In this document: positions 3,341 through 19,005 of the stretch, piece after piece
Layout: each line of letters begins with the position of its first letter
Position numbering within the stretch: position 1 is the first letter of the stretch
NCBI GenBank assembly: GCA_008690995.1
Contig: VRMN01000006.1
Span: 827,501 to 891,500, forward strand
Length of the DNA: 64,000 nucleotides
Direction: 5' to 3'
Source of the DNA: Porphyridium purpureum
Taxonomy: Eukaryota > Rhodophyta > Bangiophyceae > Porphyridiales > Porphyridiaceae
Position numbers and translations under genes: made by a program
Notes under the pieces: generated by a model
What the model saw: only the letters and a program-made list of their open reading frames with translations
What the model was told of the DNA's origin: nothing
Database searches by the model: none

Positions 3341-6070
3341 ATGGACGAGCTCCTCGCCAGCTTCAACAACTCAGAGAACGAACACTCGTCCGTGTACAAT
3401 GACGCATTCGCCGATCGCGACGATGACGGCGTGTATGCCAATTCCCTCGACGGCAATATTCTGGATAGTACGGACGGTTTTGGCAGCGGCGTCGGCGGTA
3501 GCGAATTGTATGGCTTCAGCAGCTCGGGATATGGCACAACCGGTATGAATGGGATCACCAAACCCATGTCTCTGTTTGATGACGCACCGCAGGGGCAGGA
3601 TGAAGACCAAAATGCCATGCTTGTGGATAGCCCGGGGGATGGTAACGCGGCTCAAGGATTTGAACCACAGGCTCGGCAGCTACAATCGCATTTGGAGTCA
3701 CATCAGCTACAAGATCAGCAGGTGTCGCAGCAACAGGATCAGGCGATGAGCTCTACTCTAGCGAACATGGACACAATGCGGAGCCCTGCGACCGGCCTCT
3801 TGTCGGATCAGTTTGCCACGCCAGGCGCGACGGAGAAGAGAATAGATTACATGTCTGCCAGTCCCGCGGGGCCGCTGCCCGGTCCAGGCGTCACCGCGCC
3901 AGAGTCGAATATTGACGATCCTTCGTACCAGCTCGGGTCTGCCTTGGCACCACAGGATGAGTTTGCCGCTGCAGGCGCGGCTGTAGGCGAGATGACGCCG
4001 TCGCATTCGACGCGTTCGAAGCGTCAGCGACTAGCTTCGGAGGAGACGCTCGAGGCTTCACCAGAAGTTGGGTATGCGGTCTCTCAAGTGATGCGCGAGA
4101 CGTTGCAGACCATGATGACGCCCATGGTCTTCGCGCAATACGTGCGATGTGCGCTTTCGCGCGATGATCTGTCCATGGACTCTTCGTTTTCCGCGGCTGT
4201 CGTGTTTGCAGGCGGATTCCCTAAGAGCATGCGCCCCGAGCGGCAGGGGGACAATGGCCACCATCATTTTCACCAATTCCGGCGGCGCATGAGCTTGCGC
4301 CCGAGCGTAGAGTACGCACTCGTCCAGGCCATAGTGTTTCGCATTGGCCTGAGCAGTGCACCGAGTCCGCGACTTTCAATGTACTTGCGCGAGGTTGTGG
4401 TGCTACGCATTGTGCGCCCATTCACAGTCGTTCGTGCCATCGTGCTGGCGCTGCAAGAAAAGCAGGGTGATGTTTCGGCCGCGGCGCGCGACGCGCTTTT
4501 CCGATTCTTGTCGACGCTTATACCTTGGTACAACATCAGCAGCTACGATGACCCGCAGCGGTTCGTTGAGGAGTGCTCCTTTTACCTGCAGGCGGTGCTG
4601 TTGATATTGGGCACTTTTGACGCTGTCTGGTTTACTCCCTTAAAGCCTGGCGCAAGCGTGAACCCGCGGGAGATCGTGCGCGCGGCGTGCATGGCCAGTG
4701 CTACTTTTCTCAAGTCGCTGATGGACGAGCGGATTATCTCGCTAACGCGCGCATGTGCGCGGCGCTGCCCAGAGCTCTGGGACGAAGTGGAGGAATGCTG
4801 CAACCGCATCATTGACGTGACAACCGTATTTATCAACTCCGCCGGTAAGACCCCTCCGGCGTCCATTGCGGCGGAGCTCACGGTCGCAAAGCAGTGGCAG
4901 GCGATCTGCTCTCGCATCCGCGACGGGTTATCTGCCGCTGTAATGATTCCGTTTCAGCAGAAAGCGATCCGCGACAAGGCCGGAAAGCTCACGCTGGTGG
5001 CTATCATGGAATGGATGCTGTCCAAGACGACTCCCGTCCTCGGCAAAGAAGTGGTGAGCGCCATGCGTGAATTTCTTGTGTCCAAAGAGTCTGTTAATGG
5101 CGACCTCAACGCGCTTCGAGCCATTGAGCACGCAGCATCGACATTGTACCTGGACGCATTGAAAACGAGTAACGAAGCGGCGGCAAACGGCGCGGACGGC
5201 GCGTCGGTAGTTGCGGGGGGCGCGGCCGGCGGAGGCAGTGATGCTCCAGTTACTTCGGCTGGCGGTGCCAAAGGTGGCGAAAAATTCTCATTCAAAGAAC
5301 AGTTTCGCATGTGCGAGCGAATGGTGCGACAGCTAAGTGAGGCGATAGTTGTGGACGAGGCTCAGGCAGAACAGCACCTGGCAGAGTGGGGCGGGCGCGA
5401 GCGGGTGAATCGACTCTTGTTCAATGTCCTTCCGCAAGTGAAGAATCAATTGCGCTCGACGTATAGCTGTTTAATCCTTGCTACCGTTGTGGTCACCATT
5501 ACGGCAACAGCAGCCGGCACGCACCTGGTCTCCACGGGAATTGCACAGTCAACGGCGGCCCCACTGAGTCCCGGTGACGAGGTTGCGGAACTTACCGATC
5601 GCTTTGGAAGTTTTGCAGTGGAGCTGCTGAAGGAAGCCGCGTTTGGCGACGATATACTGCCCAGTCGATCGTTTGGCTTGTTTTTGATGCGCCTAGCCTG
5701 TCGCGCAGGCGGCCTGCTGCGGCTGTGCAAATGCAACTATGCACTTGCTGTACGTATCCTGCGCGCTTGGGACGTGATCAACGGCGGCAAGCCTTTTTCG
5801 GACGCAAACCTTGGACTGTATGGCGTCGAGACCAATCAAGGCACGAGCTACTTTATGCAGGCTGCCATTCACGCGGGCATTATCGATGCGCCCGGCGGTG
5901 CAGGAGGTGCGAACGCTGGCGCGGGCCCGGGCGCTGCACAGGGCCATGTACATCCCATACGCAGCAACTTTAGTCTAAGCATGAGCACATCGACGCTCGT
6001 AATCGATGCGTCGGACGATCCTGCGTCCGACATTGGGCTGAGGCTGCTCTGTTCCGAACCCACGCTGTAG
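3341..6070 (+). CDS. Unknown 909-residue protein with Q/acidic N-terminus
   Basis: I do not recognise this protein. Residues 1-240 are Asp/Ser/Gly- then Gln-rich and probably disordered, with a short basic patch (STRSKRQRL) near residue 225. Residues 245-680 are an all-helical region with many Ala/Leu/Arg helices and two Cys-containing helices (ACARRCPELWDEVEECC). A Gly/Ala-rich linker follows near 610-650. A hydrophobic stretch, LILATVVVTITATAAG, lies near residue 715 and could be one membrane helix or a buried helix. The C-terminus is again Gly/Ala-rich. The ATG at 3341 has a purine at -3 and G at +4. A 23-codon upstream ORF (3331-3402) overlaps it in another frame and could reduce translation. 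The stop is followed by a long GT microsatellite. It could be a nuclear scaffold or Mediator/NOT-like helical protein; that is speculation. Confidence 0.8.
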   Translation: MDELLASFNNSENEHSSVYNDAFADRDDDGVYANSLDGNILDSTDGFGSGVGGSELYGFSSSGYGTTGMNGITKPMSLFDDAPQGQDEDQNAMLVDSPGDGNAAQGFEPQARQLQSHLESHQLQDQQVSQQQDQAMSSTLANMDTMRSPATGLLSDQFATPGATEKRIDYMSASPAGPLPGPGVTAPESNIDDPSYQLGSALAPQDEFAAAGAAVGEMTPSHSTRSKRQRLASEETLEASPEVGYAVSQVMRETLQTMMTPMVFAQYVRCALSRDDLSMDSSFSAAVVFAGGFPKSMRPERQGDNGHHHFHQFRRRMSLRPSVEYALVQAIVFRIGLSSAPSPRLSMYLREVVVLRIVRPFTVVRAIVLALQEKQGDVSAAARDALFRFLSTLIPWYNISSYDDPQRFVEECSFYLQAVLLILGTFDAVWFTPLKPGASVNPREIVRAACMASATFLKSLMDERIISLTRACARRCPELWDEVEECCNRIIDVTTVFINSAGKTPPASIAAELTVAKQWQAICSRIRDGLSAAVMIPFQQKAIRDKAGKLTLVAIMEWMLSKTTPVLGKEVVSAMREFLVSKESVNGDLNALRAIEHAASTLYLDALKTSNEAAANGADGASVVAGGAAGGGSDAPVTSAGGAKGGEKFSFKEQFRMCERMVRQLSEAIVVDEAQAEQHLAEWGGRERVNRLLFNVLPQVKNQLRSTYSCLILATVVVTITATAAGTHLVSTGIAQSTAAPLSPGDEVAELTDRFGSFAVELLKEAAFGDDILPSRSFGLFLMRLACRAGGLLRLCKCNYALAVRILRAWDVINGGKPFSDANLGLYGVETNQGTSYFMQAAIHAGIIDAPGGAGGANAGAGPGAAQGHVHPIRSNFSLSMSTSTLVIDASDDPASDIGLRLLCSEPTL

Positions 6071-6527: not shown

Positions 6528-8312
6528 ATGCGAATGTGCGACGGTGCTGCGATCAGGCCTGCATTTGTGTCGATTCCAGTGACCGCGCGGAAGGCGCGCG
6601 CGTCGCAGTTTGGCGCGCCGTGGTACCCGCCAAGGTGGCAGATTCAGCTGGCCGTCGCTTGCGCATACCGAAGGAGTAGCTCTCATATTGCCATGGCCGC
6701 GTCTGCCGCGCAAACGTCGAAAGCCGCGGTTGCCGGCAAGTGCGTGATTGCGTGGTTCCGCGCAGACTTGCGCTTGCGCGATAACCCGATGCTCATGGAC
6801 GCCATTCGAGCCGGCCAGGGATGCGTGCTGCCCGTCTACTGCTTCGATCCGCGGTGCTTTGGTCTCACAGACGAGGCAAAGTTCCCGAAATGCGCCGCGC
6901 CTCGTGCCCAGTTCCTGCGTGAGTGCGTCGAGGATCTCCGCAACAATCTGCGCGCGCTTGGCTCGGATCTGATCGTGCGGCACGGCCACCCGGAAGTGGT
7001 GCTGACGCAGCTGGCCGAGCAGTACCAGTGCTCACACGTGTTTGGGTCCAAAGAAGTGGCGTGGGAGGAGACTCGCGTGGAGAAAAAGCTGCGCGCAAAC
7101 ATGTCCAAATTGGAGAAGCCACCCAAACTGTCTCTCACTTGGGGCGCTGTCACCATGTATCACTTGGATGACCTTCCGATGGACATTGACCAACTGCCAG
7201 ATGTGTTCTCGCAATTTCGTCGCAGCGTCGAATCGCGACCGGCCGTCGAGGTTCGTGCACCTCTGCTGGCTCCGGCAAAGGGCGCCTTGCGTCCCCTCCC
7301 AGAAGGACTCGAGATCGGTGCGTTGCCGAGCATGGACGAGCTCTTGGAGGCTACAATTCCCGAAGCGTCGCAGCGACAGTTTCAGCAGGACTCGCGTGCG
7401 GTGCTTTCCTTTCGTGGCGGCGAGACGGCCGCGCTGGCGCGCGTGCAGTATTACCTGTGGGAAAGTGACTGCGTCGCCAAGTACAAGGAGACCCGCAACG
7501 GAATGGTGGGTGGCGATTACTCCAGCAAGTTCTCGGCATGGCTGGCGCACGGCTGCGTGAGCGCGCGCGATATTTACCACGAGATCAAGAGCTACGAACG
7601 CACTCGCGTGGCCAACGATTCTACGTATTGGCTCATCTTTGAGCTGATTTGGCGGGACTACTTTCGTCTGCTGGCTCTGCGCTGCGGTAACGATATTTTC
7701 TTTCTGGGCGGTCCTCGCCGGCGCGACAAGATTCAGTGGAAGCAAGACCGGAAAGCATTTGAGGCGTGGCGAACAGGCAATACAGGTTACCCATTGGTAG
7801 ATGCTAACATGCGAGAGTTGAATCAGACGGGATTTATGAGTAACCGTGGGCGTCAGAACGTGGCCTCCTTCCTGACAAAGGATTTACGCATTGACTGGCG
7901 CTGGGGAGCCGAATGGTTTGAATCGATGCTTCTGGATCACGATGTGCACAGTAATTATGGGAACTGGACGTACGCCGCAGGCGTCGGTATGGACCCTCGC
8001 GAGGATCGTCACTTTAACGTGGTCAAGCAGGCAAAAACATATGATGAGACTGGCGAGTACGCAAAGTTGTGGCTGCCAGAGCTCGCGGATGTACCTGCAG
8101 AGTTCATATATGAGCCGTACAAGATCCCGGCGTCCGAACGAAGCAGGTTCAATGGTTTGGATCAGTATCCAAGGCCTGTTGTCAACACATTCGGAAAGGG
8201 TAGTTTTCAGGCTGGCGGACAGGGCGGAAGGCAGCCAGATATTCAATCTGGAAAAAAGCATCGCGGGCCGAGCAAGCCAAGAGCGAACGCGCGACGCGAG
8301 CCAAAGTACTAG
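6528..8312 (+). CDS. CRY-DASH cryptochrome, copy 1 (canonical)
   Basis: A 594-residue flavoprotein of the photolyase/cryptochrome family, DASH subfamily. These enzymes bind FAD and an antenna (usually MTHF), repair cyclobutane dimers in single-stranded or looped DNA and may act as blue-light sensors in organelles or nucleus. The first ~70 residues are basic and hydroxylated, a likely organelle leader. The Rossmann antenna domain starts at VIAWFRADLRLRDNP. The FAD domain has the DASH signature YKETRNGM followed by DYSSKFSAWLAHGC, then RQNVASFL, IDWRWGAEWFE, SNYGNW and DPRED. The two electron-transfer Trp residues in DWR and GNW are present. The last ~40 residues are Gly/Lys/Arg-rich. ATG 6528 has A at -3; the open frame continues upstream only through non-ATG codons. 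It is first of four tandem copies and the only one keeping all canonical FAD-loop motifs. Confidence 0.95.
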   Translation: MRMCDGAAIRPAFVSIPVTARKARASQFGAPWYPPRWQIQLAVACAYRRSSSHIAMAASAAQTSKAAVAGKCVIAWFRADLRLRDNPMLMDAIRAGQGCVLPVYCFDPRCFGLTDEAKFPKCAAPRAQFLRECVEDLRNNLRALGSDLIVRHGHPEVVLTQLAEQYQCSHVFGSKEVAWEETRVEKKLRANMSKLEKPPKLSLTWGAVTMYHLDDLPMDIDQLPDVFSQFRRSVESRPAVEVRAPLLAPAKGALRPLPEGLEIGALPSMDELLEATIPEASQRQFQQDSRAVLSFRGGETAALARVQYYLWESDCVAKYKETRNGMVGGDYSSKFSAWLAHGCVSARDIYHEIKSYERTRVANDSTYWLIFELIWRDYFRLLALRCGNDIFFLGGPRRRDKIQWKQDRKAFEAWRTGNTGYPLVDANMRELNQTGFMSNRGRQNVASFLTKDLRIDWRWGAEWFESMLLDHDVHSNYGNWTYAAGVGMDPREDRHFNVVKQAKTYDETGEYAKLWLPELADVPAEFIYEPYKIPASERSRFNGLDQYPRPVVNTFGKGSFQAGGQGGRQPDIQSGKKHRGPSKPRANARREPKY

Positions 8313-8811
8313 ATCGGGTTTCAGGGGTAGGATAAATTGAAGATCATGTAAACGCAGCTCTCTGACAAGAAGAGCGATCCCGGGGATACGTAAGGATCGG
8401 CGCCATGGAGGTTGTACGTTTGTTTCGATGGTAAGCTCTCTGCCAGTTCTCCTCGTGACAATCGTGGTAGGTCGGTACAACGTTTTGCGGAAGAAGAGGA
8501 GAAAGAATATTTTAAAGGGAAAAAAAAAAAAAAATAAGAAAAAATAATAGAAACTCGCTGTCGCTAGACTCCGAGGCGCGCGACTGCAGAGATTTCACGC
8601 CGAAGCTCAAAGCAAGTCAGCCGGAACCCAACGAGAAGTGTCCTTTCGACGACACTCCCGCGACCGGGGCCTTTGCGCTTAGTTGAGAGATCTGCTCTGT
8701 CTCTCCCAGGAAAGAGCCATAGCCGCGGGGGCAGGCAAATTTCAACTCGAAACCGGTGGTGCTACTGAGCGTCTCGCCCGCGCGGACAGGCTCTGGTGTC
8801 GTGCAGGACGG
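8313..8811. other. Spacer between CRY-DASH copies 1 and 2
   Basis: About 500 bases including a poly-A/AT-rich stretch at 8517-8550 that may mark the 3' end of copy 1. I see no gene here. The second half is open in the frame of copy 2 but has no ATG before 8812. Confidence 0.6.
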
Positions 8812-10602
8812 ATGAATGTGTCGATGCAAGCCTGCTCAAAGATTGTGAACCGAGCCCGACTGGACTCGAAACGTTGGATTCCGACTCGCGCGCTGTGCAG
8901 TGAAGGGGAGCCACGCGGACTAGAACGGGAGCAGCGGAAACTGCGTGTGGCTGTCACGCGTATGAAAGAGTTAAGAGGTTTTAATGCCCCGAAGCGTGTC
9001 GTCACACCTCCATCTGAAGACAGCTATGTGATTGCGTGGTTTCGCGCAGACTTGCGGCTGTGCGATAACCCGATGCTGGCAGAAGCTATTCATACTGGTA
9101 AGGGCCGCGTGCTGCCTGTCTATTGTTTTGACTCTAGAAACTTTGGCCTCACGGACGAAGCCAAACTACCGAAATGCGCCGCGCCACGCGCCCAATTCTT
9201 ACGTGAGTGTGTTCAGGATCTACGTAACAGCCTGCAAGAGTACGGCTCGGACTTGATTGTGCGGCATGGCCGCACAGAGGTGATACTGGCGCGACTTGCC
9301 AAGCAATACCAGTGTTCACACATCATCGGATCCAAGCAAGTGGCATGGGACGAATTGCGAATAGAGAGCAAACTTCGGTCCCTGGTGACTCAGATGGAAA
9401 TTCCGCCCAAGGTTTCCTTCTGCTGCGGCGCAGAGACCTTGTATCACTTGGAGGACTTACCCCGAGAATTTTATCATGTTCCAGACGACATTCCGCAATT
9501 TCGCAGAAGTGTTGAGGCGCAGCATCATCGTCCCGGCACACGAATTCGACTCCCTTTCCTGCCACCAGACGAAGGGGCGCTTCTGCCCCTACCTGAAGAT
9601 ATTGATCGTGGCACAGTGCCAAGTCTAGATGATTTGTTGCAGGAGTCAATCCCCGATGAGTCGCAGCGGCGCGTTGAGCCGGACGCTCGTGCACCATACG
9701 TCTTTCGAGGCGGTGAGACAGCTGCTCTCGAGCATGCGCAGTCGTTTTTCTGGGAGACTGACGGAGTCTCCAAATATAATTATACGCGAAAGGGTATGAC
9801 GATGCGTGGCACACCTCTCTCAAGTATGTTGTCTGTGTGGCTTGCGCAAGGCTGCATAAGTGCAAGAAGTTTATACCACGTGATGCAGAGCTACGAGCGC
9901 GAGCGCGTTGCAAACTCAACACAATGGCTCTTCCGGGATCTGATTCGGCGCGACTATTACCGACTGCTTGCGTTGCGGCTGCACCATGAGCTTCGTTTCC
10001 AGCGAGATTATGTCAAGACGTATTTTCAGGATGGACCACGCGTTCCTGGACAGCTAACGTGGAAGCGCGACCGTGAGGCGTTCGAGAAGTGGTGTATGGG
10101 CAAGACGGGCTTCCCGCTGGTCGATGCGTGTATGCGCGAACTCTATACGACGGGCTTTCTGAGCGGGCGCGGCCGCATGAGTGTGGCCTCGTTCTTGACC
10201 AGAGACTTGCTTATCGACTGGCGCTGGGGCGCCGAGTGGTTCCAGTCGAGACTGGTGGACTATGACAGCCACAGCAACTACGGCAACTGGGTAGACATTG
10301 CAGGCGTGGGAATGGACCAGCAACGTCAGGAGCCATATGTCAATGTGGTCAACCAGGCCAAGTCGTACGATGAGAATGGTGATTACGTCAAGCATTGGCT
10401 GCCGGAGCTAAGCAAAATCCCCGTCGAGCATATACACGAGCCGTACAAGATCCCAGCTTACGAGCGCAACGCATACAAGTGCTTGGCTGACTACCCAGAG
10501 CCCGTGATTGACTCGTACGGGAGGGGCGGGTTTTTGACCAAGCTTGGCAAAGATCGCGATATCCGTCCATTTGCCGTTGTTCGTCGGGCGGAAAAGGAGT
10601 AG
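8812..10602 (+). CDS. CRY-DASH cryptochrome, copy 2 (diverged)
   Basis: A 596-residue paralogue of copy 1. Leader: residues 1 to about 65, basic. The antenna domain begins at YVIAWFRADLRLCDNP. The FAD domain keeps IDWRWGAEWFQ and SNYGNW, so both inner Trp residues of the electron chain remain. Several family positions have changed. The YKETRNGM segment is YNYTRKGM. The DYSSKFS phosphate-binding segment is TPLSSMLS. WRDYFR is RRDYYR. RQNVASFL is RMSVASFL. DPRED is DQQRQ. Synonymous sites look more AT-rich than in copies 3 and 4. The protein should still fold, but FAD affinity or repair activity may differ; this is inference. ATG 8812 is the first in frame; 8824 is an alternative. Confidence 0.9.
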   Translation: MNVSMQACSKIVNRARLDSKRWIPTRALCSEGEPRGLEREQRKLRVAVTRMKELRGFNAPKRVVTPPSEDSYVIAWFRADLRLCDNPMLAEAIHTGKGRVLPVYCFDSRNFGLTDEAKLPKCAAPRAQFLRECVQDLRNSLQEYGSDLIVRHGRTEVILARLAKQYQCSHIIGSKQVAWDELRIESKLRSLVTQMEIPPKVSFCCGAETLYHLEDLPREFYHVPDDIPQFRRSVEAQHHRPGTRIRLPFLPPDEGALLPLPEDIDRGTVPSLDDLLQESIPDESQRRVEPDARAPYVFRGGETAALEHAQSFFWETDGVSKYNYTRKGMTMRGTPLSSMLSVWLAQGCISARSLYHVMQSYERERVANSTQWLFRDLIRRDYYRLLALRLHHELRFQRDYVKTYFQDGPRVPGQLTWKRDREAFEKWCMGKTGFPLVDACMRELYTTGFLSGRGRMSVASFLTRDLLIDWRWGAEWFQSRLVDYDSHSNYGNWVDIAGVGMDQQRQEPYVNVVNQAKSYDENGDYVKHWLPELSKIPVEHIHEPYKIPAYERNAYKCLADYPEPVIDSYGRGGFLTKLGKDRDIRPFAVVRRAEKE

Positions 10603-10951
10603 AGTATCAATCGCAGTCCAGTGCAGAGGCCTCGCTCATTGTTCATCTATGCTCATCCTGTTCCTGCACACATAGACACAGAGAGACACAGAGCAGCGGC
10701 GGCAGGCAGCTCCAAGTAGTGCAGCCGCAACATCCATCCGCAGGCGTCCCAAGCCAATGGAGTTTCTACTATAAAAGCGTGCAGTTTTACTAGGACAACT
10801 TCTTTGGCTGGTTTGCGCGTTTTCCTGCTCCCCGAGTTGTGGCGCCGTGCGACGGACGGCGCGACGTGGCGGACGTGCGACGAGCAGCGCCGGTGGGGCC
10901 ACATGACATCGAGCCACAGGCGCTCGCGAGCTGGTGGTGCCGCACAAGCTG
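10603..10951. other. Spacer between CRY-DASH copies 2 and 3
   Basis: About 350 bases. Nothing gene-like was seen except low-complexity frames on the minus strand. A short ATAAAA-containing AT stretch at about 10770-10775 could be a core promoter or a 3' end signal for copy 2. Confidence 0.45.
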
Positions 10952-12856
10952 ATGAAAGCATACATGCGCTTGCGCACGACCTTCGCTGCAAGACCTCCCG
11001 GCGTCGTCCCGAATCTCGTCCGCTGCGCGCGTAGTTTGCGGTTCAACGGATCTGTGGATGAACGCTGGCAGCCGCGCGCGTTGGGTTGGCGCTCAAGCAG
11101 CACTACTGGTGTCACTGCGGTCCCCGACAGTGAGAGAAGCAGGAGTGATAGCAGCAGTACCAGCAAGAGCGATGTCAAACTGCGCGACCGCTGGCATGAA
11201 AGAAAGTACGTAATCGCGTGGTTCCGCGCAGACCTGCGCGTGCGCGACAACCCGATTCTTCTGGCCGCCATTCGTGCTGGGAAGGGCCATGTGCTGCCCG
11301 TGTACTGCTTTGATCCACGATCGTTTGGCCTGACAGACCAGGCCAAGTTTCCGAAATGCGCTGCGCCACGCGCTCAGTTTCTGCGTGAGTGCGTGGAGGA
11401 TCTGCGCAACAGCCTGCGGGCGCTTGGCTCGGACTTGATCGTGCGGCATGGTCGGCCGGAGGTGGTGCTCTCAGAGCTAGCGGAGCAGTACGGGTGCTCG
11501 CAGGTGTTTGGGTCCAAGGAAGTAGCCAGAGATGAGACGCGCGTGGAGAAAAAGCTGAATGCAAGCTTGGCTGCACTGGAGAACCCGCCCGAGCTGACAC
11601 TTCGGTGGGGCGCTTCGACCATGTTTCACCTGGATGACCTGCCCTTTGCGCTGGAGGAGATGACTAGAATTTACGATGTCTTTGCGAATATCCTCAGGGC
11701 AGAGGCCTCGAAGCCAATCGTCGTGCGGTCGCCGCTGCTACCGCCGGCGAAGGGCGCGCTGCAGCCCCTACCGGAAGGACTAGATCGCGGTATAGTTCCA
11801 AGCCTGGACGAGTTGTTGAAGGATTCAGTTCCGGACGCGTGGCAGCGCCATTTTGAGCGAGACATGCGCGCAGTGATTCCATTTCATGGGGGCGAGTCTG
11901 CAGCGATTGCGCGCGTGCGTCATTTTCTGTGGGAAAAGGACTACGTTTCAAAGTTCATGTTTTCCCGGACCAGACTCAAAGGTGATGAGTCGTCGAGCAA
12001 GCTTGCACCGTGGCTTGCTCATGGGTGCGTGAGCGCCCGCGACATCTATCATGAGGTTCGGCGCTACGAACGCACGCGTGCGGCGAACCGGTCAACAAAG
12101 GCGTTCGTTCAAGATCTCATGTGGCGCGACTATTTTCGTTTTCTCGCCTTGCGGCTTGGGAACGTGATGTTTTCTTTGAGAGGTCCGCGCCGTCGCGGCG
12201 ACATCGAATGGGGACACGATCGTGTCGGGTTCGAAGCATGGCGTACGGGCAACACGGGTTACCCGCTGGTCGATGCAAGCATGCGTGAACTCAACCGGAC
12301 GGGCTACATGAGTGGGCGCGGGCGCCGAAACGTGGCTTCATTCCTGGTTCACGAACTAGGTATCGACTGGCGCTGGGGCGCAGAATGGTTTGAATCTAGG
12401 CTTCTTGACTACGATGTGCATAGTAACTATGGCAACTGGACGTACTCTGCGCGCGTTGGACTGGACCCGCGCGAGGACGTCAAGAGAAGGTGTAATGTGG
12501 TCAAGCAAGGCATGGAGCTAGATGTCTATCGTGAGTTCGCCCAGGTATGGCTGCCAATGTTGGCCGGCATCCCGAGAGAGTTTATGTATTCTCCGTACAG
12601 GTTGACGGGTGTGCAACGTGCCGAGTTTCCGAACGTCGATCGTTACGCGCTACCCATTGCTGAAAGGAAGCCTGTCACTGTCAACCCAAAAGATTTGGCT
12701 CGCAGAATGGCTCGGAACTTGCACAGAAGAATGCGAAGAGAAAAGTTGAAAGAAAGAAAGGCTCAGATCGCACAGAGGAAGGCGGACAAGCTGCGTGGGC
12801 AACAAGGAGACTCTTACGTGGGACTTTTGCAGAGGAAATTGAGCAAGCGGCGATAA
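10952..12856 (+). CDS. CRY-DASH cryptochrome, copy 3, with long basic C-terminal tail
   Basis: A 634-residue DASH cryptochrome. A leader of about 85 residues is rich in Ser/Thr/Arg (many Ser in SERSRSDSSSTSKS). The antenna domain starts at YVIAWFRADLRVRDNP. The FAD domain has WRDYFRFLALR, RRNVASFL, IDWRWGAEWFE, SNYGNW and DPRED, so the fold and Trp chain are intact. The YKETRNGM loop reads FMFSRTRLKG, and the phosphate segment reads DESSSKLAPWLAHGC. The last ~55 residues are dominated by Arg and Lys (for example RRMRREKLKERKAQ), a likely helical nucleic-acid-binding tail absent from typical family members. Bases 11206-11628 are almost identical to 13279-13701 in copy 4, showing recent gene conversion. 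ATG 10952 is the first in frame. Confidence 0.92.
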   Translation: MKAYMRLRTTFAARPPGVVPNLVRCARSLRFNGSVDERWQPRALGWRSSSTTGVTAVPDSERSRSDSSSTSKSDVKLRDRWHERKYVIAWFRADLRVRDNPILLAAIRAGKGHVLPVYCFDPRSFGLTDQAKFPKCAAPRAQFLRECVEDLRNSLRALGSDLIVRHGRPEVVLSELAEQYGCSQVFGSKEVARDETRVEKKLNASLAALENPPELTLRWGASTMFHLDDLPFALEEMTRIYDVFANILRAEASKPIVVRSPLLPPAKGALQPLPEGLDRGIVPSLDELLKDSVPDAWQRHFERDMRAVIPFHGGESAAIARVRHFLWEKDYVSKFMFSRTRLKGDESSSKLAPWLAHGCVSARDIYHEVRRYERTRAANRSTKAFVQDLMWRDYFRFLALRLGNVMFSLRGPRRRGDIEWGHDRVGFEAWRTGNTGYPLVDASMRELNRTGYMSGRGRRNVASFLVHELGIDWRWGAEWFESRLLDYDVHSNYGNWTYSARVGLDPREDVKRRCNVVKQGMELDVYREFAQVWLPMLAGIPREFMYSPYRLTGVQRAEFPNVDRYALPIAERKPVTVNPKDLARRMARNLHRRMRREKLKERKAQIAQRKADKLRGQQGDSYVGLLQRKLSKRR

Positions 12857-12974
12857 CTGGTCTGCTACACGGCGCGGACGAGCATCTCCACACAAGTAGT
12901 TTGCCCCCGTCCGTTTCTCCCTCTCTCGTTTCTGTTTTCTTCATTGTAGGTACCAAAAAAAAAGAAAAGGGAGA

Positions 12975-13268
12975 ATGTTTCCTTTTGCGCCGAGTAGCGC
13001 CACGTTGAACATGGAGGAGACCTTCAGGCGGCCGATCGCTAGCAGGTCATCTCGCCTTGATGCGCCAACGGGTAGGTTTAGTGCGCATGGAGTGCGATGC
13101 GAGGATTCATGCGGCACGGCGTCCCAAGCATGCTTAAGCATGGCTCAGGCGCGGAGCGGTCCCGAACGCGTCCCATCGACGGAATTGGACAGCCACGCGT
13201 CTGGCGGTATCGTCGCGTGTGCTCGTTCTGTAGCTTCAGGACCTGCGACGAGCTGCGCAATGGTGTAG
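12975..13268 (+). other. Upstream ORF overlapping the start of CRY-DASH copy 4
   Basis: An ATG at 12975 opens 97 codons, in a different frame from copy 4, and ends past copy 4's ATG at 13097. A second in-frame ATG lies at 13011. The peptide resembles nothing known to me. If the transcript starts upstream of 12975, this ORF would repress translation of copy 4. It could equally be chance, since the spacer is only 240 bases. Confidence 0.3.
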
Positions 13269-14893
13269 AGACTCGCAGGTACGTGATCGCGTGGTTCCGC
13301 GCAGACCTGCGCGTGCGCGACAACCCAGTTCTTCTGGCCGCCATTCGTGCTGGGAAGGGCCATGTGCTGCCCGTGTACTGCTTTGATCCACGATCGTTTG
13401 GCCTGACAGACCAGGCCAAGTTTCCGAAATGCGCTGCGCCACGCGCTCAGTTTCTGCGTGAGTGCGTGGAGGATCTGCGCAACAGCCTGCGGGCGCTTGG
13501 CTCGGACTTGATCGTGCGGCATGGTCGGCCGGAGGCGGTGCTCTCGGAGCTAGCGGAGCAGTGCGGGTGCTCGCAGGTGTTTGGGTCCAAGGAAGTAGCC
13601 AGAGATGAGACGCGCGTGGAGGAAAAGCTGAATGCAAGCTTGGCTGCACTGGAGAACCCGCCCGAGCTGACACTTCGGTGGGGCGCTTCGACCATGTTTC
13701 ATCCGGACGACCTGCCCGATGGTGTTGCGCAATTGCCAAATGCGTTTGTTCGGTTTCGTCGTGTCCTAGAGAGACAGCCTCCGGTCCCTATGCGCTCGCC
13801 GCTGCTACCGCCGGCGAAGGGCGCGCTGCAGCCTTTACCGGAAGGAGTGGATTGCGGTGCAATTCCAAGTATGGATGAGCTGCTGAAGGAATCTATTCCA
13901 GCCGAGGCCGAGCGCTGCTTTCAGCTGGACGCGCGTGCGGCGCTCCCGTTTCGCGGTGGCGAGACGGCCGCACTCGCGCGCGTGCATTACTATTTGTGGG
14001 AGAGTGACCGCATCTTCAAGTTCAATTATACACGACGCGGGCTTCGGGGAGCCGATTACTCGAGCAAGTTTTCGGCGTGGCTCGCGCACGGCTGCGTAAG
14101 CGCGCGCGACATCGGTCACGAGATCAAGCGATATGAGCGCACACGCAAGGCAAACCTTTCGACCCAGCGACTCGTGCATGAGCTAATGGTGCGCGACCAC
14201 TTCCGCTTTCTTGCAATGCGCGTCGGCGATGCTCTATTTCGGCTCGGTGGGCCGCGCGGTCGCCTGGACTTTGAATGGAAGCACGACCGCGCCGCATTTG
14301 AGGCGTGGTGCACTGGTGCTACGGGCTACCCGCTCGTCGATGCAAGCATGCGCGAGCTGCATCGGACGGGATTTATGAGCGACCGCGGGCGCCGGAGTGT
14401 TGCTTCGTTCCTCATCAAAGAGCTCCGTATAGATTGGCGCTGGGGTGCGGAATGGTTCGAGTCGAGGCTGCTGGACTATGATGTGCACAGTAACTATGGC
14501 AACTGGACAAGCGCTGCGGGTCTCGGCGTCGACCCTCGTGAGGAGCTCCGTTTGAATGTAGTCAAGCAAGGCAGAGCGTTTGACCGGTATGGTCTCTACG
14601 CCAAGCTTTGGCTCCCCGAGCTCAAAGCGATTCCTCAAGGTGACTATTTCATGTACGAGCCGCACAGGAAACCGGCGGCAGAGCGCGCGACCTGCGCAAA
14701 CCTAGAGCAGTATCCTGCGCCGTTCGTTGAACGAAAGCGCGAGCCAAATGCCTTAACCGCACTCAGCGCACGATTGCGGTCCAACGGGAAGAAGGAGAAG
14801 AAGAAGAGGAGGAGGTTGAGGATACAGAGGCTGGCGATGCGGGAGAAGAAGCGTCTCGAGGCGCGCCAAAACATTGGTCGAAGAAGAAAATAA
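13097..14893 (+). CDS. CRY-DASH cryptochrome, copy 4, with basic C-terminal tail
   Basis: A 598-residue DASH cryptochrome with a short Arg/Cys-containing leader of about 60 residues. The antenna domain starts at YVIAWFRADLRVRDNP and is nearly identical to copy 3 over about 140 residues. The FAD domain keeps DYSSKFSAWLAHGC, IDWRWGAEWFE, SNYGNW and DPREE. YKETRNGM is FNYTRRGL, WRDYFR is VRDHFR, and RQNVASFL is RRSVASFL. The C-terminus ends in a Lys/Arg tail (GKKEKKKRRRLRIQR...RRRK), analogous to copy 3. ATG 13097 is genuine in frame; an overlapping upstream ORF precedes it. Together with copies 1-3 this makes an 8.4-kb tandem array in the same orientation. Confidence 0.92.
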   Translation: MRGFMRHGVPSMLKHGSGAERSRTRPIDGIGQPRVWRYRRVCSFCSFRTCDELRNGVETRRYVIAWFRADLRVRDNPVLLAAIRAGKGHVLPVYCFDPRSFGLTDQAKFPKCAAPRAQFLRECVEDLRNSLRALGSDLIVRHGRPEAVLSELAEQCGCSQVFGSKEVARDETRVEEKLNASLAALENPPELTLRWGASTMFHPDDLPDGVAQLPNAFVRFRRVLERQPPVPMRSPLLPPAKGALQPLPEGVDCGAIPSMDELLKESIPAEAERCFQLDARAALPFRGGETAALARVHYYLWESDRIFKFNYTRRGLRGADYSSKFSAWLAHGCVSARDIGHEIKRYERTRKANLSTQRLVHELMVRDHFRFLAMRVGDALFRLGGPRGRLDFEWKHDRAAFEAWCTGATGYPLVDASMRELHRTGFMSDRGRRSVASFLIKELRIDWRWGAEWFESRLLDYDVHSNYGNWTSAAGLGVDPREELRLNVVKQGRAFDRYGLYAKLWLPELKAIPQGDYFMYEPHRKPAAERATCANLEQYPAPFVERKREPNALTALSARLRSNGKKEKKKRRRLRIQRLAMREKKRLEARQNIGRRRK

Positions 14894-15038
14894 ATGTTCA
14901 AGTAGGGAAGCCGCATCTTCGAATTTACGTTTATCGGCGACTGGAAGCTCGTGCCCTTGGCGCGCCAGAGAATCGCGTGTGCGCGAAGCGCGAGGTGCGG
15001 AAAGCCGACGAGACGTGTGGCAAGGACGCCTTGCCGCG

Positions 15039-15299
15039 ATGAGCAAGAGCAGTATCACGGACGCCGAGCTGGACGATCTCGTTCAGTCGCTGGTGGTGCA
15101 GCAGAGCGTTGCGCAGTCGGGCCGGGAGAGCGTGGACGTGCCTCGCTACACGTACACCGCGCTGGGCGTGGCGCTCGTGGTCAGCGTGCTGCTGCTCATT
15201 GGCGCGTGGATGAAGTATCACCGCTGGATTCGGCGCGCGCTCGAGAGCCGCGAGGACTCGGCTCTCTTCCCGTCTATGCGCGGCACGACGCGGATGTGA
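15039..15299 (+). CDS. Small single-pass membrane protein
   Basis: An 86-residue protein. Residues 1-35 are acidic and helical (ITDAELDDLVQSLVVQQ). A clear membrane helix, YTALGVALVVSVLLLIGAWM, lies near residues 38-57. It is followed by a basic stretch (KYHRWIRRALESRED) that suggests the C-terminus faces the positive-inside side. I do not recognise the family. The frame is open further upstream but only through non-ATG codons and partly inside the copy 4 gene, so ATG 15039 (context gcgATGa) is preferred. No signal peptide is obvious, so a tail-anchored or type II topology is possible. Confidence 0.6.
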   Translation: MSKSSITDAELDDLVQSLVVQQSVAQSGRESVDVPRYTYTALGVALVVSVLLLIGAWMKYHRWIRRALESREDSALFPSMRGTTRM

Positions 15300-17007: not shown

Positions 17008-19005
17008 ATGTTTGCGGGAGCGCAACAACAGCAAGGGAAATCGGCGTCTGCGGGCGCTATGAGTTCAGAGGAGATTAAAGTGGCAGACCCGCTCAATTTG
17101 GTGCTGCGGTTGCCGTCCTCGCTCAGCGCGCTGCTGCAGGTCAAGAGCGGCGGGCTCAGAAACATGCTGCGGCTCAGGCTCGCGTCGCTGGCGTTCGCCG
17201 AGCTGCGCGGCTTCTCGGTCGTGCTGTACCCGCTCTCGGACCGTGCTCACATGAGCAAGGCAGACATGGAGCGCTTTGAAAACGCCATCGACGTGAAGAA
17301 GCTCTCGCAGCAGGTGTCGCCAGAGGACATCGTCATTATCAACTTGAAGGAGGCCAGCATGCTTGTATCCGCGTCCAAACGCTCCATATTGTTTCGCCGC
17401 GAGGACGAGCACAATATGGAGCTCGTGCTGCGCTCAGGCGCCCAATTCAGTACGTGGTCGGACGCGCTAGCGCGTGCCAAGGCGAGCCGGGACGTCTCGC
17501 TCGCGGACTTTCACATTGTCCGCCCGCTCGGGCAGGGCGCCGGTGGCAAGGTGTTTTTGGTGCGGGACCGCGAGAGCGGCGAGCAGCTCGCGCTCAAATG
17601 TGTCGAGAAGGCAGTCGTGACAAAGACAAGCGATAAGATGCGGCACGCCATGGACGAGCGGCTGGTGCTCGAATTATCGTGCGACCACCCGTTCATTCTG
17701 CAGCTGCGGTACGCCTTCCAGACGGAGCGCCGCTTGTACATGGTGACCGATTTCTGCAAGGGCGGCGACTTGTACGAGTACATGCGCAAGCGCGGACGCC
17801 CGCTTTCTGAGCGCCGCGCCCGGCGGCTCGGTGCGCAAATTTTGCTCGCGCTGGAACACATCCACTCGCTGCAGGCCATTTACCGCGACCTCAAGCTCGA
17901 GAATGTCCTATTAGACGACCGTGGCTATACACGGATCGCGGACTTTGGCCTCGCCAAGGTATTGGAGGGAGACAAGCAAGGCAACAGCACTCGGAGTTAC
18001 AGCTCGCCGAGCGCGCCAAGTCTCAGCGGGAGTACACACTCGGTCAGTGAAGACAGAAGTGGCGGGCGCAGCAGCGCTCTGCTACCATTGTCCGGAGCCT
18101 CGGCTAAATCGGCTGGCGCTGGGAAACCGCCGGCCGCAAAGCAAAAGACACCGGTCACATCTAAACAGCCGCCGCCGCCGCAGCAGCAGCAAAAACAAGC
18201 ATCCGCGTGGGGTACAACAACATTTTGCGGGACGCGTGAGTACGTTGCGCCAGAAATGCTCTCGGGTAAGCCATACGGACAGAGCATCGATGTCTGGGCT
18301 TTCGGTATTCTTATGTACGAAGTCTTGTGCGGCCGGACGCCGTTCTATGCCGAAGATCGTGACGAGGTATACAACAAGATTGAGACCGGTACTTTGACAT
18401 TTCCACCGCATCTCCACCCAGTAACAATGGACCTACTAACCAAATTACTCCACAAGGACGCTCAGAGCCGCCTCGGTGCCGGGCCCGGCGGGATCGCCGA
18501 GGTTAAGGGTCACCCTTTCTTCCGCGGCTTGGACTGGCAGGGCGTCATTGATAAGGTTGAGCATGGTGATAACCTTCCCACCATCGAGGTGGAGCCGACC
18601 GATCAAGATTTTGAGGAAATGATGACGGGCATCACATTTGATCTCGAAGATACGTGCGAATCTCGCGCCGCAAACGTTAGTCTGGACAAGTCCGCGGCCG
18701 GCTCGAAGGCATGGGCGGCGTTTATGCCACGCTCGGTGTCGGCCAAGAGCTCCCGGAGTCTCAAGAGTAGTCCGACAACGATGAGCAGGAGTGGGAAGAG
18801 CATAGTGAGCAGGGAGTTCAGCAAAAAGTCAAGCATTCCGGGCTATGCGTACTCGTATGTGGGCAAGCTTAGCGAAGACTGGGGCGGCAGCGACATCACT
18901 CGCGAAGGCATTGAGATGGAAAGGGGGCCTCGGCTCGGCACCGTGTCGCTCCGATCGGAGGACGCGACCAGCGCGGACAACGCGCCGCGCGTGAAGTCTG
19001 AATAG
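17008..19005 (+). CDS. AGC-family Ser/Thr protein kinase with activation-segment insert
   Basis: A 665-residue kinase. Residues 25-160 form a divergent PH-like module: beta-rich, ending in a Trp-containing helix (FSTWSDALARA). The kinase domain spans about 168-535. Its Gly loop is GQGAGGKV, the ATP-anchoring Lys197 lies in ALKC, the catalytic loop is YRDLKLEN (292-299), DFG is at 312-314, and the T-loop is TTFCGTREYVAPE with Thr405 as the expected PDK1 site. The YRD and basophilic acidic residues place it with Akt/S6K/PKC-like AGC kinases. Between DFG and the T-loop sits an ~80-residue Ser/Pro/Gln-rich insert (about 322-402), which is unusual. After the kinase domain come a short AGC-tail-like segment (EPTDQDFEEMMTGITF) and a Ser-rich basic region; no clear FxxF hydrophobic motif was found. 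It probably acts in nutrient or lipid signalling (inference). Confidence 0.9.
   Translation: MFAGAQQQQGKSASAGAMSSEEIKVADPLNLVLRLPSSLSALLQVKSGGLRNMLRLRLASLAFAELRGFSVVLYPLSDRAHMSKADMERFENAIDVKKLSQQVSPEDIVIINLKEASMLVSASKRSILFRREDEHNMELVLRSGAQFSTWSDALARAKASRDVSLADFHIVRPLGQGAGGKVFLVRDRESGEQLALKCVEKAVVTKTSDKMRHAMDERLVLELSCDHPFILQLRYAFQTERRLYMVTDFCKGGDLYEYMRKRGRPLSERRARRLGAQILLALEHIHSLQAIYRDLKLENVLLDDRGYTRIADFGLAKVLEGDKQGNSTRSYSSPSAPSLSGSTHSVSEDRSGGRSSALLPLSGASAKSAGAGKPPAAKQKTPVTSKQPPPPQQQQKQASAWGTTTFCGTREYVAPEMLSGKPYGQSIDVWAFGILMYEVLCGRTPFYAEDRDEVYNKIETGTLTFPPHLHPVTMDLLTKLLHKDAQSRLGAGPGGIAEVKGHPFFRGLDWQGVIDKVEHGDNLPTIEVEPTDQDFEEMMTGITFDLEDTCESRAANVSLDKSAAGSKAWAAFMPRSVSAKSSRSLKSSPTTMSRSGKSIVSREFSKKSSIPGYAYSYVGKLSEDWGGSDITREGIEMERGPRLGTVSLRSEDATSADNAPRVKSE

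Follow-up and report, generated by a model that had tools for sequence, protein, structure and literature searches.

Four cryptochrome genes in tandem

The stretch of DNA analysed here (the window) comprises 64,000 nucleotides of the red alga Porphyridium purpureum (C14:827501-891500, in a contig of 975,138 bases; the genome assembly has 22.16 Mb in 46 contigs). Between positions 6528 and 14893 it carries four intact open reading frames of the cryptochrome DASH (CRY-DASH) type, all on the plus strand and arranged head to tail. When the first in-frame ATG of each frame is taken as its start, the spacers between the copies are 499, 349 and 240 nucleotides (nt) long. An earlier note on this DNA, made from the sequence alone, had described four complete DASH-type genes with spacers of 240-500 bases, and the coordinates and reading frames bear this out. 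The spacers showed no similarity to one another at an E value of 1e-3 (blastn-short). The features are listed below, with each gene running from its first ATG to the end of its stop codon; bit scores refer to the NCBIfam model TIGR02765, and the changed columns and pocket sites are explained in the next section. pLDDT is the mean predicted local distance difference test score of the structure model.

6528..8312, plus strand: copy 1, canonical CRY-DASH, 594 amino acids (aa) from the ATG at 6528; 577.1 bits; 0/94 columns changed; pocket KNEWNQY
8812..10602, plus strand: copy 2, the most divergent, 596 aa, frame open from 8683; 407.4 bits; 20/94 changed; pocket NKDRGMD; pLDDT 84.0
10952..12856, plus strand: copy 3, 634 aa, with a basic C-terminal helix (residues 579-633 of the model); 459.4 bits; 17/94 changed; pocket MTDWGRY; pLDDT 86.7
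13097..14893, plus strand: copy 4, 598 aa, with a basic C-terminal tail; 477.2 bits; 15/94 changed; pocket NREVDRS
6528..6743, plus strand: leader of copy 1, 72 residues ahead of the domain, from the first-ATG position
8812, 10952 and 13097, plus strand: starts of the leaders of copies 2 (72 residues), 3 (86) and 4 (62), from the first-ATG positions

The array itself is already in print and is not new. A single sentence of Lee et al. 2019 (PMC6811547) mentions "four tandemly duplicated cryptochrome genes" in P. purpureum CCMP1328, and this is very probably the same array, as the species, the four tandem cryptochromes and the assembly size (22.1 Mb) agree. Relative to the accessible part of that paper, the pocket, domain and gene-conversion analyses are additions of the present work. 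According to the same part, the assembly was a Nanopore hybrid with a read N50 of 14.9 kb, and the gene models drew on RNA-seq. An assembly artefact, a possibility raised in the earlier note, is unlikely, given that Nanopore reads went into the published assembly and that its authors likewise describe four cryptochrome genes in tandem. Our literature searches covered mostly sources outside subscription journals; within that literature, including the accessible parts of PMC6811547 and PMC9794408, no functional study of the array was found, nor anything on DASH cryptochromes together with tandem duplication.

All four proteins score above the TIGR02765 cut-off of 317.05 bits and contain both photolyase domains (PF00875 and PF03441), while their scores with the plant-type cryptochrome model TIGR02766 (158.6-171.2 bits) are all below its cut-off of 603.85. 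The DASH model matched 11 places in the 22.16-Mb genome; only the four genes of the array passed the cut-off, and none of the seven other matches reached it. The earlier note had held that most genomes carry one or two such genes. This agrees with the cyanobacteria, where, using the cyanobacterial DASH protein P0139 as the entry to the genomes, 55 of 292 genomes drawn had a match over the cut-off, one apiece, in a count that did not include eukaryotes. For red algae the accessible texts report three putative DASH proteins in Cyanidioschyzon merolae (PMC8591175), of which two repair single-stranded cyclobutane pyrimidine dimers (CPDs) and one lacks CPD repair, and four DASH or DASH-like genes with differing localisation and rhythm in Gracilariopsis chorda (PMC10853006). 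Four or a similar number of DASH genes thus has red-algal precedent. A search by back-translated words confirmed no prokaryotic relative of copy 1.

Divergence of the pocket and of the flavin domain

Copies 2-4 are only 55-61% identical to copy 1 in protein sequence, and their changes at near-invariant positions lie mostly in the flavin adenine dinucleotide (FAD) domain. Using 203 DASH homologues, which were the best matches to copies 1 and 3, we defined 94 near-invariant columns (at least 99% conservation), 76 of them in the FAD domain. Copy 1 departs from none of these, and copies 2, 3 and 4 depart from 20, 17 and 15, of which 18, 14 and 14, respectively, lie in the FAD domain. The largest count for any of the 203 homologues was 2 of 94, a figure limited partly by the way the columns were chosen. 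With a 90% threshold (179 columns), 17, 47, 39 and 32 columns were changed in copies 1-4, the maximum among the homologues being 24 and the median 2.

Seven sites, K273, N277, E325, W328, N391, Q395 and Y434 (CRY3 chain index), are invariant in 203/203 homologues. The residues found there are KNEWNQY (copy 1), NKDRGMD (copy 2), MTDWGRY (copy 3) and NREVDRS (copy 4). Two of them, Q395 and Y434, we take to be the substrate pair. For CRY-DASH proteins the substrate positions are given as Q and Y (Table 1 in the accessible part of PMC7560933). Copy 1 has Q/Y, and copies 2, 3 and 4 have M/D, R/Y and R/S, so that copies 2-4 are classed as CRY-DASH by descent only, the Q/Y pair being found in copy 1 alone. 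A search with copy 2 yielded 110 further homologues, 60 of which have the Q/Y signature (changed-column median 1, maximum 20). Among the twelve most divergent of these 60, 11 keep all seven sites and one lacks only the Glu. The remaining 50, without Q/Y, include 44 with LW or MW, as in other photolyases, and six with other residues; two of the six are truncated, and a third is P0256, which has Q/A.

The changes spare other parts of the fold. W356, W409 and W432, which by their numbering we take to be the tryptophan triad, are unchanged in all four copies, as are R329, D330, R394, D422, D424 and N428, presumably the core FAD residues. AlphaFold2 models were made for copies 2 and 3 only, and the structures closest to both are the DASH crystals 6kii, 1np7 and 2j4d. 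In the alignment, YKETRNGM and RQNVASFL occur in copy 1 only, DYSSKFS in copies 1 and 4, and WRDYFR in copies 1 and 3, with DWR and GNW present throughout. The earlier note was therefore right that copy 1 has all of these canonical FAD-loop motifs and that copies 2-4 have each lost a different subset while keeping the DWR and GNW tryptophans, although the common theme of the losses is the presumed lesion pocket.

The pattern of constraint is inverted in copies 2-4, whose antenna domain resembles that of copy 1 more (72, 81 and 79% identity in copies 2, 3 and 4) than their FAD domain does (62, 66 and 71%). The opposite is seen in all 203 homologues, where the FAD domain is more similar to copy 1 by 6 to 23 points. 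In both domains and in all six pairs of copies, the proportion of nonsynonymous differences (pN) is well below that of synonymous differences (pS); in the FAD domain the ranges are 0.18-0.30 and 0.63-0.78. The ratio of the corresponding rates (dN/dS) would be unreliable because synonymous sites are near saturation. These proportions make decay without function appear unlikely.

For maximum-likelihood trees we took 57 homologues from the set of 203 (17 selected, 40 random) and used LG+G4 without a mixture model. The four copies form one clade in all of them (SH-aLRT/UFBoot support 100/100 with all columns, 98.1/100 with the FAD domain and 100/100 with the antenna domain). The neighbour of the array is P0121, a metagenome protein (87.9/94 and 92.1/98, weak at 23.6/69 with the antenna domain). 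P0121 has the canonical residues at those pocket sites that were inspected, so copy 1 represents the ancestral state and copies 2-4 are derived; the branching order among the latter is less certain than the clade, owing to their long branches and the absence of a mixture from the model. In the FAD domain the distances of copies 1-4 from their common ancestor are 0.05, 1.29, 0.98 and 0.71, the paths of copies 2-4 being about 14 to 26 times that of copy 1, and in the antenna domain they are 0.15, 0.42, 0.05 and 0.09.

Copies 3 and 4 have in addition been subject to gene conversion within the antenna domain:

11206..11644, plus strand: gene-conversion tract, copy 3 side, in the antenna domain; differs from 13279-13717 at 10 of 439 nt, with sharp ends; pS 0.045 inside and 0.66-0.72 outside
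13279..13717, plus strand: gene-conversion tract, antenna domain, copy 4 side; same comparison with copy 3
11729..11766 (copy 3) and 13796-13833 (copy 4), plus strand: second identical patch, in the linker, 38 nt, from the mismatch map at offset 2067

Identity over the 439 nt is 97.7%, including 207 nt without a difference, and the boundaries are abrupt, one where the antenna domain begins and the other close to where it ends. The longest run of identical codons between the two copies (68 of 457) was matched in none of 10,000 permutations. Fourfold degenerate sites are identical between them at 79/82 positions in the antenna domain and 29/81 in the FAD domain. For copy 1 the same comparison gave 29/53 and 23/73 with copy 2 (p 0.011), 38/69 and 30/78 with copy 3 (p 0.048) and 37/68 and 31/88 with copy 4 (p 0.022), and there was no such difference between copy 2 and copies 3 or 4 (p 0.58 and 0.36). 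No correction was applied to these tests, which also depend on one another, and they give a mere hint of an older exchange involving copy 1. Both this conversion and the prior publication of the array had been overlooked in the earlier note.

The ends of the proteins differ as well. The leaders of 62-86 residues are rich in Arg and Lys and differ from one another, in agreement with the earlier statement that each copy has its own, and those of copies 2 and 3 have low pLDDT across most of their length. The net charges of the last 64 residues are +10, +2, +17 and +18 in copies 1-4. The basic tails of copies 3 and 4 could contact nucleic acid or a partner, or serve as a nuclear signal.

For copy 4 the C-terminus depends on the gene model. 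The database protein P0002 ("Cryptochrome DASH [Porphyridium purpureum]") equals copy 4 over 561 residues and then continues, across a GT-AG pair near 14779-14968, into a frame downstream that contains a hydrophobic stretch. This frame (window 14779-15299, plus strand) has an ATG of its own at 15039 and may encode a small membrane protein in its own right. The unspliced end is our preference, since with it basic tails are common to copies 3 and 4; a membrane tail on copy 4 is the less favoured alternative, although the published models used RNA-seq.

Other DASH-like genes and neighbours

Elsewhere in the genome, where the seven weaker matches were examined with family models, a 429-aa DASH-like protein without a Pfam FAD domain is encoded at L013:1447-2733 (minus strand; C1 near 1888300-1889205). 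It stops at model position 301 of 431, the same position at which the Cyanidiococcus protein P0305 stops, and the two are 53% identical over 352 columns. P0305, truncated in this way, was the only other named red-algal protein among the matches listed (at most 120 per search). Together they may represent a conserved half-DASH of red algae, which, we assume, perhaps resembles plant PHR2. A 382-aa protein at L019:1177-2322 (plus strand; C11 near 1404191-1404706) has the antenna-type photolyase domain only. At L014:1315-3210 (minus strand; C1 near 1519925-1521277) lies a divergent photolyase/cryptochrome whose best model is DASH at 191.5 bits, below the cut-off. At L018 (C43 near 4474946-4476235) a cryptochrome domain is found within a 1581-aa frame with long flanks rich in Gln, His and Ser. 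The array is bordered immediately upstream by a 909-aa frame without a Pfam match (window 3341-6070, plus strand), and a protein-kinase gene lies downstream (17008-19005, plus strand).

Interpretation and known systems

Duplication followed by divergence is well supported by the single clade, the long FAD-domain branches and the low pN relative to pS. To this extent the earlier proposal of duplication and specialisation instead of dosage stands. Specialisation of the copies is supported; whether it lies in the sensing of light, in the compartment or in the substrate is a matter of interpretation. We think it somewhat probable, judging from the residues kept and lost, that copy 1 acts as a CPD photolyase on single strands and that copies 2-4 are former photolyases which have kept their flavin photochemistry for signalling. 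Copy 1 would retain the ancestral light-driven repair of CPDs in single-stranded DNA. Copies 2-4 would keep the fold, the antenna domain, the core FAD residues and the triad, but would have remodelled both the lesion pocket and a loop close to it. The antenna and the FAD would absorb blue or UV-A light, leading to flavin photoreduction through W356, W409 and W432, and in copies 2-4 the electron would no longer be passed to a DNA lesion. Instead, a partner may sense the altered redox or conformational state, perhaps assisted by the basic C-terminal tail in copies 3 and 4. Since the light-collecting and electron-transfer parts are kept and the lesion pocket is altered, the light-driven redox change of the flavin probably serves signalling in these copies. 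Precedents are the Gracilariopsis paralogues, which differ in localisation and rhythm, and the C. merolae protein that lacks CPD repair. Purifying selection and gene conversion would preserve the likeness of the antenna modules, and the output modules would diverge.

Several points weigh against this reading. P0256, 48% identical, reads Q/A, and the change of the pocket is thus not wholly unique to the array. With W328 and Y434 retained in copy 3 and E325 in copy 4, a degree of lesion binding could remain. In the loop on the FAD side, copies 3 and 4 have F instead of Y272, and copy 3 has A instead of S289; flavin binding is therefore not assured. The roles of E325, W328 and N391 in touching the lesion are our assumption. 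The accessible texts of PMC7694213, PMC6126647 and PMC11362059 do not give the residues sought, and nothing naming cryptochrome DASH with Tyr434 or Gln395 was found in the literature searched.

The main rival is a light-independent role of copies 2-4, above all of copies 3 and 4, in nucleic-acid binding, for example as an organelle RNA-binding or ribosome-assembly factor in which the fold and the basic ends act as a scaffold. The strongly basic tails (+17 and +18) and the long helix in the model of copy 3 are consistent with it, and the photolyase-like chain of Trypanosoma mitoribosome intermediates (7pua/7pub) is matched in sequence by all four copies, standing eighth in the lists of copies 3 and 4, and is also matched by the copy 3 model. 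However, DASH structures are far better sequence matches than 7pua, and retention of the triad and the FAD core in all four copies would not be expected if light and flavin were irrelevant; we consider this role rather unlikely. It is less likely still that copies 2-4 remain photolyases with reduced activity or with a substrate other than the original one, be it a different lesion, RNA or structured DNA. This would account for the retained electron-transfer residues, for W328 and Y434 in copy 3 and for the M at the first substrate position of copy 2, as in CPD photolyases, but N391 and Q395, kept in 203/203 homologues, are both replaced in copies 2-4. Decay under relaxed constraint, in which gene conversion would be a by-product of tandem repeats, could explain the long FAD-domain branches and the loss of many near-invariant residues. 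We regard it as improbable in view of the full-length frames, the confident folds modelled for copies 2 and 3 and the low pN relative to pS in both domains of all six pairs. A simple dosage array or an assembly artefact seems hardly credible, as we found no evidence in its favour, and both the identities of 55-61% to copy 1 and the Nanopore hybrid assembly with its authors' four tandem genes speak against it.

Returning to signalling by retained flavin photochemistry, a more far-reaching version of it is conceivable, though we offer it tentatively: a modular light-sensor family may be forming, in which a shared antenna, kept uniform by gene conversion and selection, is combined with three flavin modules, each stripped of lesion recognition in a different way, to give distinct redox or signalling outputs. 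This would be a transition from photolyase to cryptochrome within the DASH clade, with the ancestral enzyme adjacent, in a lineage without phytochromes. Cryptochromes are related to DNA photolyases, and intermediates of such a transition are seldom available. With a canonical enzyme beside three pocket-altered paralogues in a small red alga whose genome has been sequenced, each copy can be examined for the loss of repair, for retained flavin photochemistry and for a gain of signalling. Likewise, conversion in the antenna half against fast divergence in the FAD half of one gene is a clear natural case of modular evolution. What goes beyond the sentence of Lee et al. 2019 are the pocket changes in copies 2-4, the inverted constraint and the antenna conversion tract. 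Red algae lack phytochromes, and the authors of PMC10853006, in the accessible part, suggest that cryptochromes compensate, which makes extra cryptochromes candidates for light sensing in these algae.

Among known systems, Trypanosoma 7pua_Ff shows a photolyase fold inside a ribosome assembly intermediate; it is a weaker match than any DASH structure in comparisons of overall sequence and fold, and no paper on this mitoribosome photolyase was found in the literature searched. Gracilariopsis chorda and Cyanidioschyzon merolae resemble P. purpureum in having several DASH proteins per red alga with differing localisation or activity, a likeness by description only, and the accessible texts do not mention a tandem array. 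Arabidopsis CRY3 (2j4d, 2vtb) and the Synechocystis DASH protein (1np7) share the fold, the domains, the triad and the core FAD residues with the array. Copy 1 agrees with them at every near-invariant site, whereas copies 2-4 lack several pocket residues and have lost the Q/Y pair wholly or in part, and copies 3 and 4 differ further in their basic C-terminal tails.

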